Source: Acidobacteriota bacterium (GTDB taxonomy: Bacteria > Acidobacteriota > UBA4820 > DSQY01). From it: a DNA stretch of 44,880 nt. The DNA lies in the NCBI GenBank assembly GCA_021778515.1, contig JAJYCJ010000017.1, positions 1 to 44,880 of the forward strand, in the 5' to 3' direction. A program made the position numbers and the translations under genes. Shown here piece after piece: positions 18,511 to 44,880 of this stretch. The stretch's first letter is position 1, and every line of letters begins with the position of its first letter. The notes below the pieces were generated by a model. That model had not been told where the DNA came from and did not search any database. It was given only the letters and a program-made list of their open reading frames with translations.

Positions 18511-20204
18511 GGGGTATCTCCCATCTGGGCCACCTCCACGCTGGGGCGGGGCGCCGGGTAGCTGAGGCGCCTGAGGGTGTAGGCCATGATCTGCGAGAAG
18601 GCCGGAGCGGAGACGGACCCTCCGTATATCTTTCCGACGGGTTCATCCACCATGACCAGCACGACCGCCTGGGGGTTTTCTGCGGGGGCGAACCCGACGA
18701 AGTAGGCGATGAAGAGCTTTCGGCCATCAGGGCTGCGGATGCCGAGTTTCTGGGCGGTCCCCGTCTTGCCCGCCACCGTCACCCCGGGAATGGCGGCGGC
18801 CTTGCCCGTGCCCGCTGTCACCACGTCGGTGAGCATTCCGGTAAGAACCCGGGCCGTTTCGGGCTTCAGGATGCGCTGAAAGGGGGCCTGAGGCGCATCG
18901 GCCAGGATGCGCGGAACCACCTTGTACCCGCCCGAAGCCACGTCGGCGTAGGCCAGGGCGAGCTGGAGCGGAGTGACGCGGAGCTCCTGGCCGAAGGAAA
19001 GGGAGGGGAGCGACAGGAGCGACCACTGGTTGGGAGGGCGAAGGCGCCCAGGCACCTCCCCGTCCAGGCCCAGGGGCGTCACGGAACCGAAGCCGAAGAG
19101 GCGCATGTAGTGGTACATGGTCTCAGCCCCGACTGCCATTCCGATCTTGGCTGCCCCGACGTTGGAGGAGTGGGCCAGAACCTCCTCCAGGGAGTAGACC
19201 GGCTTGATGGGATGTTCGTCGTCGTGGATGGTCTTTGGCCCCACGGTGAGCGTTCCGTTGCCGACGACCACCGTGTCATCGGGGTGGAAGCGGCCGGAAT
19301 CGAGGGCGGCCGAAAGGGTCACAATCTTGAAGGTGCTCCCCGGTTCGTAGGAGTCGGTCACGGCCCGATTCCGCCAGTCTGCTGGCGGGGACTCCCCCGG
19401 GGCGTTGGGGTCGAAGGTGGGCGCCACGGCCATGGCCAGAATGTCCCCCGTGTGGGGGTCCAGCACGATGACCACGCCGTCCTTGGCCTGGAGCTGGCTT
19501 ACGGTCTGCTGGAGGACCTCCTGGGCTTCGTACTGGATCGGCATGTCGATGGTGATTCGAACCGTGCGGGGAGGAGGATCCACGTCGGACACTGCATTCA
19601 CGGGGATCAGCGTGTTGGCCACGGCGTCACGCATGAATTGGAAGCGGCGCGTCCCTCCCTGCAGCACCTTGTTCCACTCGTGCTCCAGGCCGGAGAGGCC
19701 TCCGTCTGTCCCCATGCACCCGATAAGGTTGCTGGCGAGATCTTGGTTGGGGTAGTACCGCCCCCATTCGTTCATGAGCGCGCAGCCCTTGTGGCTGGCG
19801 CAGAGGGCGCGGGCCTCGTCCATCTGGTCGAAGGGCAGCTTGCGGGCGATCCAGGTGAACACGTGCCGCCGGTCCAGCTCCTTCAGGATCTCTTTGGGAT
19901 CGTGCCCGCTCAAGGCGCCGGCGGACGTGGCCAGGCCGACGGGGTCGACGATCTTCTGGGGGTCGAAGGAGTAAAGGGACGGGCAGCGCACGCTGGCCGC
20001 CAGCAGGGTCCCGTTCCTATCCACGATGGTGGCGCGCGGAAGGTCGATCTCGATCACTTCGCGGGCCTGGTTCTGGGCCACCATCGCGTAGTAGCCTCCC
20101 CTGACCAGCTGGAGGTACGCAAGGCGAGCCGTGATGATGGCGGCCAGAAGTCCGACCAAGACGGAGAACCACCGGATTCTGGTCAAGAGACTGTCCCGGC
20201 TCAT
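18507..20204 (-). CDS. ftsI: Septal peptidoglycan transpeptidase FtsI (PBP3)
   Basis: The protein has 565 residues. FtsI is the class B penicillin-binding protein that cross-links septal peptidoglycan with FtsW. It has a short cytoplasmic tail, one membrane helix (about 13-33), a pedestal domain beginning REVIEIDLPRATIVDRNG, and a transpeptidase domain with the three active-site motifs STFK (290-293), SSN (346-348) and KTG (480-482). No PASTA repeats follow. The ATG at 20204 overlaps the ftsL stop by four bases; a longer open frame to 20333 is the wrong frame of ftsL. Confidence 0.96.
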   Translation of the reverse strand: MSRDSLLTRIRWFSVLVGLLAAIITARLAYLQLVRGGYYAMVAQNQAREVIEIDLPRATIVDRNGTLLAASVRCPSLYSFDPQKIVDPVGLATSAGALSGHDPKEILKELDRRHVFTWIARKLPFDQMDEARALCASHKGCALMNEWGRYYPNQDLASNLIGCMGTDGGLSGLEHEWNKVLQGGTRRFQFMRDAVANTLIPVNAVSDVDPPPRTVRITIDMPIQYEAQEVLQQTVSQLQAKDGVVIVLDPHTGDILAMAVAPTFDPNAPGESPPADWRNRAVTDSYEPGSTFKIVTLSAALDSGRFHPDDTVVVGNGTLTVGPKTIHDDEHPIKPVYSLEEVLAHSSNVGAAKIGMAVGAETMYHYMRLFGFGSVTPLGLDGEVPGRLRPPNQWSLLSLPSLSFGQELRVTPLQLALAYADVASGGYKVVPRILADAPQAPFQRILKPETARVLTGMLTDVVTAGTGKAAAIPGVTVAGKTGTAQKLGIRSPDGRKLFIAYFVGFAPAENPQAVVLVMVDEPVGKIYGGSVSAPAFSQIMAYTLRRLSYPAPRPSVEVAQMGDTP

Positions 20205-26711: not shown

Positions 26712-26757
26712 AAGCAAAGAGGCCTGGCCGGTGCAAACCGGCCAGGCCTCTTTGCTT
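26712..26757. terminator. Bidirectional 21-bp terminator hairpin
   Basis: The arms 26712-26732 and 26737-26757 are perfect complements of 21 bases around a 4-base loop. The outer stem reads AAGCAAAG / CTTTGCTT, so each strand ends in a T-rich tail. It sits between the converging cytochrome gene and the SPFH gene and should end transcription from both sides. Confidence 0.9.
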
Positions 26758-41029: not shown

Positions 41030-41878
41030 TCAGCGCTTGCCACTGCGGCGCTTCTTGGGCTTCTTGACGGGCTGGCCGGGCGCGGCCTGCACCTCGGCCT
41101 CGCCCTCCTCTTCTCCGTCCTCTAGAAGCCGGCCCATCCGCCCCAGCACGATGGGGTAGGCGCCGTCCACCTTCTTGCCGATGTGGATGATCTTGCGCCG
41201 CTGGGCCTCGGCGAGGAAGGCCTTGAACTGGCTGAAGCCGAAGCTCTTCTCGTCGAAGGTGGGGCTGAGCTGGAGCATCTTCTGCTTGAGGTTGGAGGAG
41301 TCCACCGAACGATCCTCGTCCTCCAGCAGGGCGATGGCGCGCTTGAGGATGGCGAAGGCCTTGGGAAGGTCCTTCGGGTCGGTCTCCTTGCTCTCGCCGA
41401 CCATAGCCTCCGTGGCCTGAAGAGGATCCACGATGTTTTCGTAGGCGAGGTACTCGTTGCAGTTCTTCATGACGACCGAGGAGGTGGTCTGTCGCATCCC
41501 GATGATGACCACCTTCTTGTTGTAGGCCTGGAGGCGGGAGATGAGGGGCAGAAAGTCGCTGTCCCCGCTGACCACGGCGAAGACGTCGATGTGGTGGTTC
41601 GTCAGGCAGGCCTCCAGCGCATCCACGGCGAGCTGGATGTCGGCGCCGTTCTTGTCGCCTCCGGCGAAGATGGTGGGCCGCTCCACCAGGTCTACGCCGT
41701 TTTCGGCCAAGGTCTTGCGGAACTGGGGGAATTTGGCCCAGTCCCCGTAGGCCTTCTTCAGGATGATGATGCCCCGCTCCCTGAGCGCGTTCAGGACACG
41801 CGTGATGTCCAGCTGCCCGTTGTCGAAATCGATGAACAGGGCGATGCGGGGGGTTTGATCCGTGGGAGTAATTTGCAC
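41030..41878 (-). CDS. NYN-domain (LabA/DUF88) protein with LOTUS domain
   Basis: The protein has 282 residues. The N-terminal NYN domain is a PIN-like nuclease fold with its acidic cluster: D17 and D19 in LFIDFDNG, D80 and D86 in GADIQLAVD, and D106 and D108 in SGDSDF. A C-terminal OST-HTH/LOTUS domain follows (about 172-250), a fold that binds RNA. The tail is Lys/Arg-rich. It is probably an RNA endonuclease or RNA-binding regulator. I chose the GTG at 41878, seven bases after AAGGAG; an open frame continues to 41929 but without a better site. Confidence 0.88.
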   Translation of the reverse strand: MQITPTDQTPRIALFIDFDNGQLDITRVLNALRERGIIILKKAYGDWAKFPQFRKTLAENGVDLVERPTIFAGGDKNGADIQLAVDALEACLTNHHIDVFAVVSGDSDFLPLISRLQAYNKKVVIIGMRQTTSSVVMKNCNEYLAYENIVDPLQATEAMVGESKETDPKDLPKAFAILKRAIALLEDEDRSVDSSNLKQKMLQLSPTFDEKSFGFSQFKAFLAEAQRRKIIHIGKKVDGAYPIVLGRMGRLLEDGEEEGEAEVQAAPGQPVKKPKKRRSGKR

Positions 41879-41899
41879 GTTCACTCTCCTTCTCCACAA

Positions 41900-41929
41900 A
41901 GCATACATCCCGATGAGCTGAGAATTCAA
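41900..41929 (-). promoter_or_regulatory. Promoter of the NYN-LOTUS gene
   Basis: On the minus strand TTGAAT (41929-41924) and TATGCT (41905-41900) are separated by 18 bases. The predicted start near 41893 leaves about 15 bases of leader with AAGGAG. Confidence 0.5.
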
Positions 41930-41997
41930 GGATTACAGGCATGCCCGTCCGGGGAAGGGGGCCTTGCCGGGTCCGACCCCCGGGATGAGCCTCGGCC

Positions 41998-42026
41998 GCG
42001 CCTTCCGCCGCTTCGCTCCGGAAGGC
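41998..42026 (+). repeat. Short dispersed repeat, copy 2
   Basis: It matches 39488-39516 at 26 of 29 positions. GCCTTCCG and CGGAAGGC at its ends form an 8-bp stem with an 11-base loop. It lies about 35 bases left of the large palindromic element. Confidence 0.5.
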
Positions 42027-42062
42027 AGGTCGCTGGAGGGGAACCCCTGACCGCTAAACTGT

Positions 42063-42361
42063 CACCCAAATTCCGCGATTGAAATGCTCTGCCTTCGATG
42101 GTGGGGAGGGTTCACGGCGGAAAGGAGGCGTCTCCCAAACCGGGAGGGCCAAGGGCTTCTCTCTCCGATTCGCAGGCCAAGCCTGCCGAATCGTCGCGTT
42201 GCCCTCCGAGGCCCCACCCCGCCCTTGGGGCTTCCTCCCCCGGATCAAGTCCGGGGTCGGAGGCTAGCCAAATCCCTTATGGGTGAAGACCCGCTTTCGC
42301 AAAAGCGACTTCCCATCGGCCTTTCGGAGTTACGACCATGTCCAATCGCGGGATTTGGGTG
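42063..42361. repeat. Palindrome-rich 299-bp element with inverted ends (MITE-like)
   Basis: The ends, 42063-42081 and 42343-42361, are 19-base inverted repeats with one mismatch (CACCCAAATTCCGCGATTG and its complement). The inside holds several hairpins: 42132-42146, 42166-42193 (12-bp stem with one bulge), 42211-42231 and CCCCGGA-TCAAG-TCCGGGG at 42238-42256. The right half recurs in inverted orientation at 44755-44880. There is no coding capacity and no clear target-site duplication. It could be a non-autonomous mobile element, a BIME-like repeat or a structured RNA. Confidence 0.75.
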
Positions 42362-42437
42362 TGAGGAATACGGGCTCCCCATGAGAAGGCGAGCCCCTGG
42401 CCGGAATGAAGAAGGGGGCGAGCCAAGATGAGGTGCG

Positions 42438-42644
42438 CTAGCCGGCCTTCCGCTTTCCCAGGTTGCAGGTGTTGATGCCCAGAAGGCTGTAGGGAGGGCA
42501 CCAGCCCACCAGGGCCGTCAGCAGGGGGATGAGGCCGATGAGCCCCCAGAGGCTCTTGGGTCCCCAGAAGATCAGGCTGATCAAGAAGAGTCCCACGATT
42601 CCCCGGACCACGCGCTCAATGGGATGAATGTTGATGCTGACCAT
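42438..42644 (-). CDS. DUF2892 small inner-membrane protein
   Basis: The protein has 68 residues with two membrane helices (about 13-29 and 32-50). The opening HPIERVVRGIVGLFLI and the end GWCPPYSLLGINTCNLGK are the recognisable pattern of DUF2892 proteins, related to the membrane tail of the rhodanese YgaP. The two cysteines (C49 and C60) are conserved in the group. The ATG has an AGGAGG site. Function is unknown; a link to sulfur or rhodanese chemistry is known only for some members. Confidence 0.85.
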   Translation of the reverse strand: MVSINIHPIERVVRGIVGLFLISLIFWGPKSLWGLIGLIPLLTALVGWCPPYSLLGINTCNLGKRKAG

Positions 42645-42762
42645 TGTGATCGCCTCCTAGTTTTTACAATGTCGGTTCGCCCCACTTTATGCCACGGATC
42701 GACTTGCGGCGCCAGTGAAGCGGCGGTACCCTCGCGTTGCAGCCGAGCACGCGGGAGCCGCC

Positions 42763-43446
42763 GTGAAGCAACCCGTCTACCGAAACCCACGCTACCAGGA
42801 GGCTCTTGAGGAGCAGATGAGGCTCAGGAGGGAGCGGCGGGAATCCCCTCTGCCCTCGCCCCTCCGCTGGATCGGCGGGGCGGATGTCTCCTTTCATCTG
42901 TACGGCACCACCTTCTGGGGGGGAATGGTGGTCTGCGACGCTCAGGAAGGGTTTCGGGTCGTGGAGCGGGCCGTCGTGAGGATGGAGGTGGATTTCCCCT
43001 ACATCCCCGGGTTGCTGGGTTTCCGGGAAGTGCCGGTCCTGGCGCGCGCCTTCGAAGCCCTCGCTCTCAAACCGGAGGCGATCCTGGTCGATGGGCACGG
43101 CACGGCGCACCCCAGGATGTTCGGCTCGGCGGCCCACCTGGGCGTCGTGCTCGGGGTGCCCACGGTGGGCAGCGCCAAGAGCCTGCTCTGCGGGACCCAC
43201 GATGAGCCGCCGCCGGAAAAGGGCGGGTGGTCGCCCATCCTGCTGGACGGCACCGCCGTCGGCGCGGCCGTGAGGACCCGCCAGCGGGTGCGCCCGGTCT
43301 ACGTCTCGCCCGGCCACCTCTCGGATCTGCCCGCCGCCGTCGCGCTCGTGCTCGCCTGCTGCCCCCGCTACCGCCTCCCCGAGCCCATACGAAAGGCCCA
43401 CGAGGCGGTGAACGAGGCCCGCCGGTCCGGCCAGCCCACTCCCTGA
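42763..43446 (+). CDS. nfi: Endonuclease V (deoxyinosine-specific)
   Basis: The protein has 227 residues. Endonuclease V nicks DNA (or RNA) next to inosine made by adenine deamination. Family motifs are intact: D41 in GGADVSF, YIPGLLGFRE (80-89) with catalytic E89, D110 and H116 in VDGHGTAHPR, and K139 in GSAKS. The start is uncertain: I chose the GTG at 42763 with GGGAG five bases upstream; a GTG at 42715 in the same frame is an alternative. It is divergent from the DUF2892 gene. Confidence 0.93.
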   Translation: MKQPVYRNPRYQEALEEQMRLRRERRESPLPSPLRWIGGADVSFHLYGTTFWGGMVVCDAQEGFRVVERAVVRMEVDFPYIPGLLGFREVPVLARAFEALALKPEAILVDGHGTAHPRMFGSAAHLGVVLGVPTVGSAKSLLCGTHDEPPPEKGGWSPILLDGTAVGAAVRTRQRVRPVYVSPGHLSDLPAAVALVLACCPRYRLPEPIRKAHEAVNEARRSGQPTP

Positions 43447-43512
43447 CTCGCAATCGGCTGAATCAGATCGGAACCGCCTCGCCGGGCGTGTCCCGCAGGG
43501 GGCTGAGGATGG

Positions 43513-44691
43513 TCAGGCTCCCTTCAACCTTCGGATGGCCTCGGCGATGCGAGCCTCGGAGGAGCCGAAGCTCAGCCGGAGGAAGGTGCCGCGCCGGTCC
43601 GGAGCGCGCCCGTCCTCCCGCGGCATGCCCCTCAGTAAGAAGGCGGAGCCCGCGACGCCGGCCACGCCCCTCTCCTTCGCGAAGGCCACGGACCAGGTGC
43701 GGTCATCCTCGATGCCCAGAGAGCTCACGTCGAGCAGGAGGAAGTAGCTGCCGTCGGGATCGCCGGTGATGAAGCCGGTCTCGGCCAGACCGGCGCGCAG
43801 CAGGTCGCACCGGCGCCGGTAGGAGGCGGCCATATCGGTGTAGTAGCTCTCGGGAAGCTTCAGCGCCTCCACCAAAGCCGCCTGAAAGGGGGCGGGCGCG
43901 CAGATGGTGAAGAAGTCGTGGGCCCTGCGGATGCCCTCCATGAGCGGCCTGGGGGCGCAGGCGAACCCCACCCGCCAGCCCGTCACGGCGTAAGTCTTGG
44001 AGAAGGAGCCGATGGTCACGGTCCTACCCCTCAGGTCGCCCACCGTGGCGGGCGGCACGTGGCGCTGGCCGGGCCGGGTGATGAAGGCGTAGGTCTCATC
44101 GGTGACGAGGAGGCAGTCGTGGCGGCGGAGCAGCTCGGCCAGGGTTTCCAGTTCCTCGAGGCGCCAGACCTTGCCCGTGGGGTTGGCGGGGGTGTTGAGC
44201 ACCAGCACCTTGGCCCCGGTGAGCGCCTCGTCCAGAGCGGTCGGGTCCCAGCGGCCCGTGAAGGGGTCCAATTCGAGAAGCCTGACTTCGGCCCGCGCCA
44301 GGCGGGAGGCGGGGAGATAGTTCTCGTAGATGGGCTCGGGAACGACGATGGCCTCTCCGGGGGCCAGAAGGGAGAGGAGCGTGGCCATGATCGCCTCGGA
44401 GGCGCCGCAGGTGATGACGCACTCCTCCTCGGCATCGTAGGCGAGCCCCCAGAATTCCCGGAGGTGGCGGGCCAGGGCCGAACGGAGGGCGGGGTCGCCC
44501 CACGTCCGGGTGTAGCCGTTCCTGCCCTCCCGGAGAGCCGCGCGGGCGGCATCGAGAACGGCTTCGGGAGTGGGGTAGTCGGGGAAACCCTGGGCCAGAT
44601 TGACCGCGCCGCACTCCTCGGCCACGCGTGTCATCTCCCGGATCAGGGATTCGTCCATGTGCGCCACGGCGGGATTCAGGGTTCTCTCCAT
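43513..44691 (-). CDS. PLP-dependent class I/II aminotransferase
   Basis: The protein has 392 residues. It has all cofactor residues of fold-type I aminotransferases: NTPANPTG (166-173), DETY (198-201), the Schiff-base lysine K232 in SFSKTYAVTGWRVGF and R240. The start region LAQGFPDYPTPEAV resembles methionine/kynurenine-type and aspartate-type aminotransferases of the same branch. The exact substrate cannot be assigned. No ribosome site precedes the ATG at 44691; a -10-like box sits seven bases upstream, so the mRNA may be leaderless. It is convergent with endonuclease V. Confidence 0.9.
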   Translation of the reverse strand: MERTLNPAVAHMDESLIREMTRVAEECGAVNLAQGFPDYPTPEAVLDAARAALREGRNGYTRTWGDPALRSALARHLREFWGLAYDAEEECVITCGASEAIMATLLSLLAPGEAIVVPEPIYENYLPASRLARAEVRLLELDPFTGRWDPTALDEALTGAKVLVLNTPANPTGKVWRLEELETLAELLRRHDCLLVTDETYAFITRPGQRHVPPATVGDLRGRTVTIGSFSKTYAVTGWRVGFACAPRPLMEGIRRAHDFFTICAPAPFQAALVEALKLPESYYTDMAASYRRRCDLLRAGLAETGFITGDPDGSYFLLLDVSSLGIEDDRTWSVAFAKERGVAGVAGSAFLLRGMPREDGRAPDRRGTFLRLSFGSSEARIAEAIRRLKGA

Positions 44692-44698
44692 GCCGAGC

Positions 44699-44728
44699 AG
44701 TCTGGCCGGCCGGCTTCTCTCGTGTCAA
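44699..44728 (-). promoter_or_regulatory. Candidate promoter of the aminotransferase
   Basis: On the minus strand a perfect TTGACA (44728-44723) is followed after 18 bases by CAGACT (44704-44699), a weak -10 box. Seven bases then separate it from the ATG, so the start of transcription would be at the start codon. Confidence 0.45.
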
Positions 44729-44754
44729 GGCGAATAGGGACTAGTGTCCTGTCT

Positions 44755-44880
44755 CATCCCAAATCCCGCGATTGGATATTGGAGCGGCTCCGAAAGGCTC
44801 ATGGATGGTAGTTTCCGTGGAAGGCGATCTTCACCCGCCAAGGGATTTGGGTTGCCTCCGACCCCGGACTTGATCCGGGG
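44755..44880. repeat. Second, inverted copy of the palindromic element, cut by the window end
   Basis: Read on the plus strand this matches the complement of 42238-42361. Shared blocks include CCCAAATCCCGCGATTGGA, CTCCGAAAGGC, TCTTCACCC, AAGGGATTTGG and the hairpin CCCCGGA-CTTGA-TCCGGGG. In this copy CCCAAATCCC (44758-44767) and GGGATTTGGG (44842-44851) are perfect inverted repeats. The last base of the window is the end of the second hairpin, so the element probably continues. Confidence 0.75.

Follow-up and report, generated by a model that had tools for sequence, protein, structure and literature searches.

The window, the 44,880-nt stretch of DNA analysed here, is the whole of contig C20 of a 3.34-Mb draft genome in 176 contigs, and near its right-hand end it carries a palindromic repeat of about 300 bp, a second, inverted copy of which runs into the last base of the contig. 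The question is what kind of repeat this is and what brought it there. The initial annotation had described a 299-bp element at 42063–42361 with 19-base inverted ends and one mismatch, and these ends are readily found by sequence comparison within the window (42063–42081 and 42343–42361, 19 nt, one mismatch); the element proper, refined to 42065–42359, excludes the outer CA and TG, which form part of a target duplication (TGTCA/TGTGA). We consider, with a probability of roughly 0.91, that the repeats are an IS1380-type MITE family, mobilised by the trans-acting transposase of an IS1380 element with the same ends. Each copy is a gene-free element of ~270–330 bp with 17-bp imperfect ends (left CCCAAATTCCGCGATTG, right CCCAAATCCCGCGATTG), which the DDE transposase of an IS1380-family element bearing those ends would recognise and move. 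The features of the window on which this reading draws are as follows.

42060–42064, plus strand: left target-site duplication TGTCA, matching the right copy at four of five bases, where the mode of the family is 5 bp
42065–42359, plus strand: complete MITE copy of 295 bp, placed by alignment with other copies
42065–42081, plus strand: left terminal inverted repeat CCCAAATTCCGCGATTG, resembling the IS1380 left end CCC(G/A)CCTTCCGCGATTG
42167–42194 (bounds approximate), no strand: internal hairpin CGATTCGCAGGC..GCCTGCCGAATCG, from folding and alignment
42238–42256, no strand: internal palindrome CCCCGGATCAAGTCCGGGG, the break point of many draft contigs
42343–42359, minus strand: right terminal inverted repeat CCCAAATCCCGCGATTG, with the same sequence as the right end of the IS1380 element
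42360–42364, plus strand: right target-site duplication TGTGA, read from the sequence
44758–44880, minus strand: second MITE copy, its right-end 123 bp, the remainder being lost at the contig end
44758–44774, plus strand: right terminal inverted repeat of the second copy, from the terminus search

The window holds three exact matches to the 17-nt end and a fourth, with three mismatches, at 2498, where 0.33 matches with at most three mismatches would be expected by chance and none of 100 shuffled sequences reached four. Across the genome, the terminus CCCAAATYCCGCGATTG, allowing up to two mismatches, has 107 forward and 106 reverse occurrences, 213 in all, against none for the reversed control sequence; with two ends per element, this amounts to ~100 copies and ~1% of the genome. 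Copy number was taken from these terminus counts together with the listed matches, since the numbers of matching stretches, for which the best candidates were scored, are lower bounds (at least 54 in the genome with the window copy as query and at least 48 with the right arm of the second copy). Anatomy and duplications were read from 46 aligned copies with readable flanks. Copy lengths are mostly 272–328 bp, the standard form being 326 bp, with first and last bases common to the aligned copies. The window copy lacks ~31 bp of the standard form, a deletion adjoining GGGGCCCC direct repeats, and in a 272-bp form 54 bp are gone, among them the hairpin CGATTCGCAGGC..GCCTGCCGAATCG. The terminal inverted repeats are 17 bp long and imperfect, with one mismatch between the two ends, which are not interchangeable: the left is usually CCCAAATT and the right CCCAAATC. 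The MITE has no coding capacity, as its open frames are chance frames of at most 115 aa, the longest of which runs out of the element, and copies differ by indels that break the frame (295 versus 326 bp). A search of 41900–44880 against Rfam matched no family up to E=1.

The second copy had first been reported as the right half of the element, recurring inverted at 44755–44880. The inverted copy is real, 42238–42359 being matched at 44758–44880 with 78.9% identity over 123 bp, rising to 95% in a 41-nt block; its being a half, in contrast, reflects only the end of the contig. It stops at base 44880, exactly after CCCCGGATCAAGTCCGGGG, and contigs C62, C88, C91, C98, C120, C130, C131, C137, C139, C150 and C170 also have this palindrome at an end or no more than a few tens of bases from one, which indicates that the draft assembly breaks there and that the second copy was cut by assembly, not by nature. 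Its 123–126 bp are 93–100% identical to ~40 other copies and only 79% identical to the first copy of the window, and on this measure the two are assigned to different subfamilies.

Insertion has left its usual marks at most copies. An exact direct repeat of 4–7 bp borders 31 of the 46 copies (5 bp in 20, 4 bp in seven, 6 bp in three and 7 bp in one), whereas pairing left and right flanks at random would give repeats of at least 4 bp in ~1.4 of the 46; the second base of the 5-bp targets tends to be T and the fourth A. For six copies the two flanks were joined and compared with the congeneric genome G001, where five of the joined sequences align across the junction and no element is present (L016, L017, L023, L025 and L026). 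The clearest of these empty sites, L023, has CTAGA at the junction and aligns over 260 bases at 94% without gaps, and that at L026 has a 6-base gap beside the junction, with an extra TATTCC in the window's genome. On contig C130, a 296-bp copy is nested in another at CTTTC, and once the nested copy and one CTTTC are removed, the host copy aligns end to end with the standard element. Many copies, target duplications and empty sites were the very checks that the initial annotation had proposed, and all three proved positive; its suggestion of a dispersed, non-coding mobile family with sharp, shared ends is thereby borne out by 213 termini, by duplications and by empty sites, and the counter-case of a repeat present only twice is excluded by the ~100 copies. 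Separately, three copies of the window's genome (C15:39343, C60:6762 and C130:37558) start right after the same internal position of another copy, at about base 102–104, which suggests a preferred target inside the MITE.

A candidate for the mobilising element was sought through Pfam PF13701 in genomes of the same bacterial family, and was found at locus L123 of genome G007. This element measures 1,604 bp, has the ends CCCGCCTTCCGCGATTG and CCCAAATCCCGCGATTG, and carries CTATT on both sides, with inverted repeats of 17/13 and a duplication of 5. Its transposase matches the IS1380 model NF033539 (E=8e-92, 308 bits against a cut-off of 180) as well as the domains PF13701 (E=1e-38) and PF01609; its frame stays open beyond the end of the element, whereas the copy in the window's genome stops earlier, and the overlong frame apparently stems from a one-base deletion near the C-terminus. 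Compared with the ends of this IS, the MITE agrees at 17/17 positions on the right and at 14/17 on the left, differing there at positions 4–6, and a left-specific T at position 8 is common to both elements. Beyond the ends the comparison yielded nothing significant, with no subterminal similarity, and an origin of the MITE interior as an internal deletion of the IS is not claimed, the likeness that such descent calls for being absent.

Two pieces of the same IS lie in the window's genome itself: on C36 a right part, 97–98% identical, with an internal deletion and an intact right end, and on C51 the left 167 bp, 98% identical. As their five flanking bases differ, they probably derive from two different IS copies. 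The assembly of the window's genome holds no intact IS1380 transposase gene, and the pieces sit at contig ends, one of them internally deleted, so that present-day activity is unproven; an IS1380 element of the L123 type is nonetheless the probable mobiliser. Several other candidates were rejected as the partner. PF13701 fragments on C168 of the window's genome and on C37 of G001, as well as an intact PF13701 gene on C273 of G006, have no such ends nearby, and on C87 of G006 two inverted MITE-type ends 1,513 bp apart (L153:212–1724) enclose ORFs resembling ribosomal protein L25 and pth, with neither a transposase nor a target duplication. For more distant IS1380 relatives (45–59% identity, in MAGs of Desulfobacteraceae, Nitrospinae and Deltaproteobacteria), a simple search defined no ends. 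Two side observations concern the IS alone. On C51 (L134:1500–1852), its left end appears to interrupt an ORF resembling an IS256-type transposase, and in the window 21 bases at 19696–19716 are identical to its 3′ part (IS 1435–1455; E=1e-4), possibly by chance.

The lack of an intact IS1380 transposase gene in the assembly, together with MITE interiors unrelated to the IS, would suit movement by a different transposase with similar ends, whether of the IS982, IS1634, Tn3 or another family. This is the strongest of the alternatives and is nevertheless improbable, given the identity of the right end over all 17 positions and the shared left-specific T, the same 5-bp duplication in IS and MITE, and the presence of pieces of the IS in the same genome; as regards Tn3, the miniature elements derived from it, TIMEs, have ends of ~38 bp.

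The MITE end sequence occurs in all eight same-family genomes searched, 2 to 247 times each, and the element was unmatched in the searched genomes of other families of the phylum. The end is conserved in four genera of a single acidobacterial family, whereas the interiors vary, the form here being 326 bp and that of the congener 151 bp. The 247 ends of G001 come in many cases from this 151-bp element with a different interior (L157:132–282 and 325–475, L156:321–471), flanked by short duplications in the examples read, and of the palindrome CCCCGGATCAAGTCCGGGG, which belongs to the 326-bp form, the window's genome has 82 occurrences and G001 six. We infer that the two elements expanded separately after the two congeners split, the 326-bp subfamily having spread on the window's side of that split. 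More speculatively, and with a low probability, new interiors may be made or picked up again and again by the IS1380 transposase, in which case the hairpin chains could serve as terminators or regulators that travel with the element.

That structure is maintained had been proposed for this repeat at the outset. A rival explanation goes further and holds that the repeat is kept for the structure of its RNA or DNA, as a terminator, an attenuator or a determinant of RNA stability, with mobility secondary, and the folding of its GC-rich chain of hairpins seems to speak for it: the window copy folds better than each of 200 shuffled sequences (z=−6.1 as RNA, −4.6 as DNA). Strong folding, however, is to be expected by construction wherever an element has inverted ends and hairpins. 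Over 24 aligned copies, RNAalifold gave a covariation term of +0.29 kcal/mol, with two-sided changes in only four of 82 pairs, several copies lack whole hairpins (deletions of 29–31 bp and 54 bp), and those of the congener join the same ends to other interiors. Maintenance of structure is therefore unsupported and, as an explanation of the family, very improbable; recognition by the transposase explains the conserved ends adequately.

At the locus of the first copy, an NYN-domain-like gene (41030–41929) and a DUF2892-like gene (42438–42644) adjoin without the element in G002, G004 and G005; in G001 the DUF2892-like stretch is also missing at the locus. As neighbouring genes are kept in relatives that lack the element, the first of the window's copies is an insertion specific to this lineage, although the intergenic DNA of the relatives is too diverged for an empty site exact to the base. 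The weakest alternative is that the two inverted copies, 2.4 kb from each other on either side of the endonuclease V, aminotransferase and DUF2892 genes, arose by local inverted duplication or delimit a transferred segment. It merits hardly any credence and is refuted by copy number and empty sites, each window copy being, besides, closer to other copies than to its partner. The related view that the flanking copies mark transferred DNA likewise falls, for ~100 copies in 3.34 Mb mean about one per 30 kb, and two of them bracketing a few genes are unremarkable. The window has other palindromes as well. Just to the left of the MITE, at 42000–42026, lies an unrelated dispersed palindrome, GCCTTCC(T/G)CCGCTTCGCTCCGGAAGGC, which is REP-like and has 43 copies in the window's genome, 27 in G001 and 13 in G004, with none for the reversed control, and at 26712–26757 a 4-nt loop separates the two perfectly matching 21-nt arms of an inverted repeat (AAGCAAAGAGGCCTGGCCGGT), which is probably a terminator.

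The element is of a known kind, and the MITE family is new. It accounts for a sizeable share of this assembly's breaks, and two congeners with different MITE subfamilies offer a clean case for studying the origin and spread of such families. The general view of mobile elements is unchanged by it. The IS1380 family is known mainly for gene mobilisation of the ISEcp1 type, and the present case would tie a large MITE expansion to it; our literature search found no description of IS1380 MITEs. Among members of the family (IS1247, ISPme1 and ISEcp1 being examples), IS1247, with 1,672 bp, inverted repeats of 16/13 and a duplication of 5 (PMC3281130), has dimensions close to those of the L123 element. 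The MITE has a right end identical to that of a family member from the same bacterial family and the same 5-bp duplication, but differs in lacking a transposase gene and in having only its ends in common with the IS.

Bacterial MITEs are defined as non-coding elements of 70–300 bp with inverted ends of 15–30 bp, present in many copies and able to fold into hairpins (PMC3733652). In size, inverted ends, absence of coding sequence, copy number and hairpins, the present family is like Correia/NEMIS, RUP, Bcr1, Nezha and MITEAba12, from which it differs by its IS1380-type ends and by a duplication that is mostly of 5 bp and not TA. TIMEs, at 262 bp and with duplications of 5–6 bp (PMC4133298), are similar in size and duplication, the difference lying in their longer ends as against the 17-bp IS1380-like ends found here. 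An affinity with REPs, also raised at the start, points to the wrong kind of element: REP and BIME sequences with their RAYT are palindromic, dispersed and largely extragenic, as are the present repeats, but REPs measure 20–40 bp (PMC3733652) and lack inverted ends flanked by a target duplication, whereas the element described here, at ~300 bp, has both.
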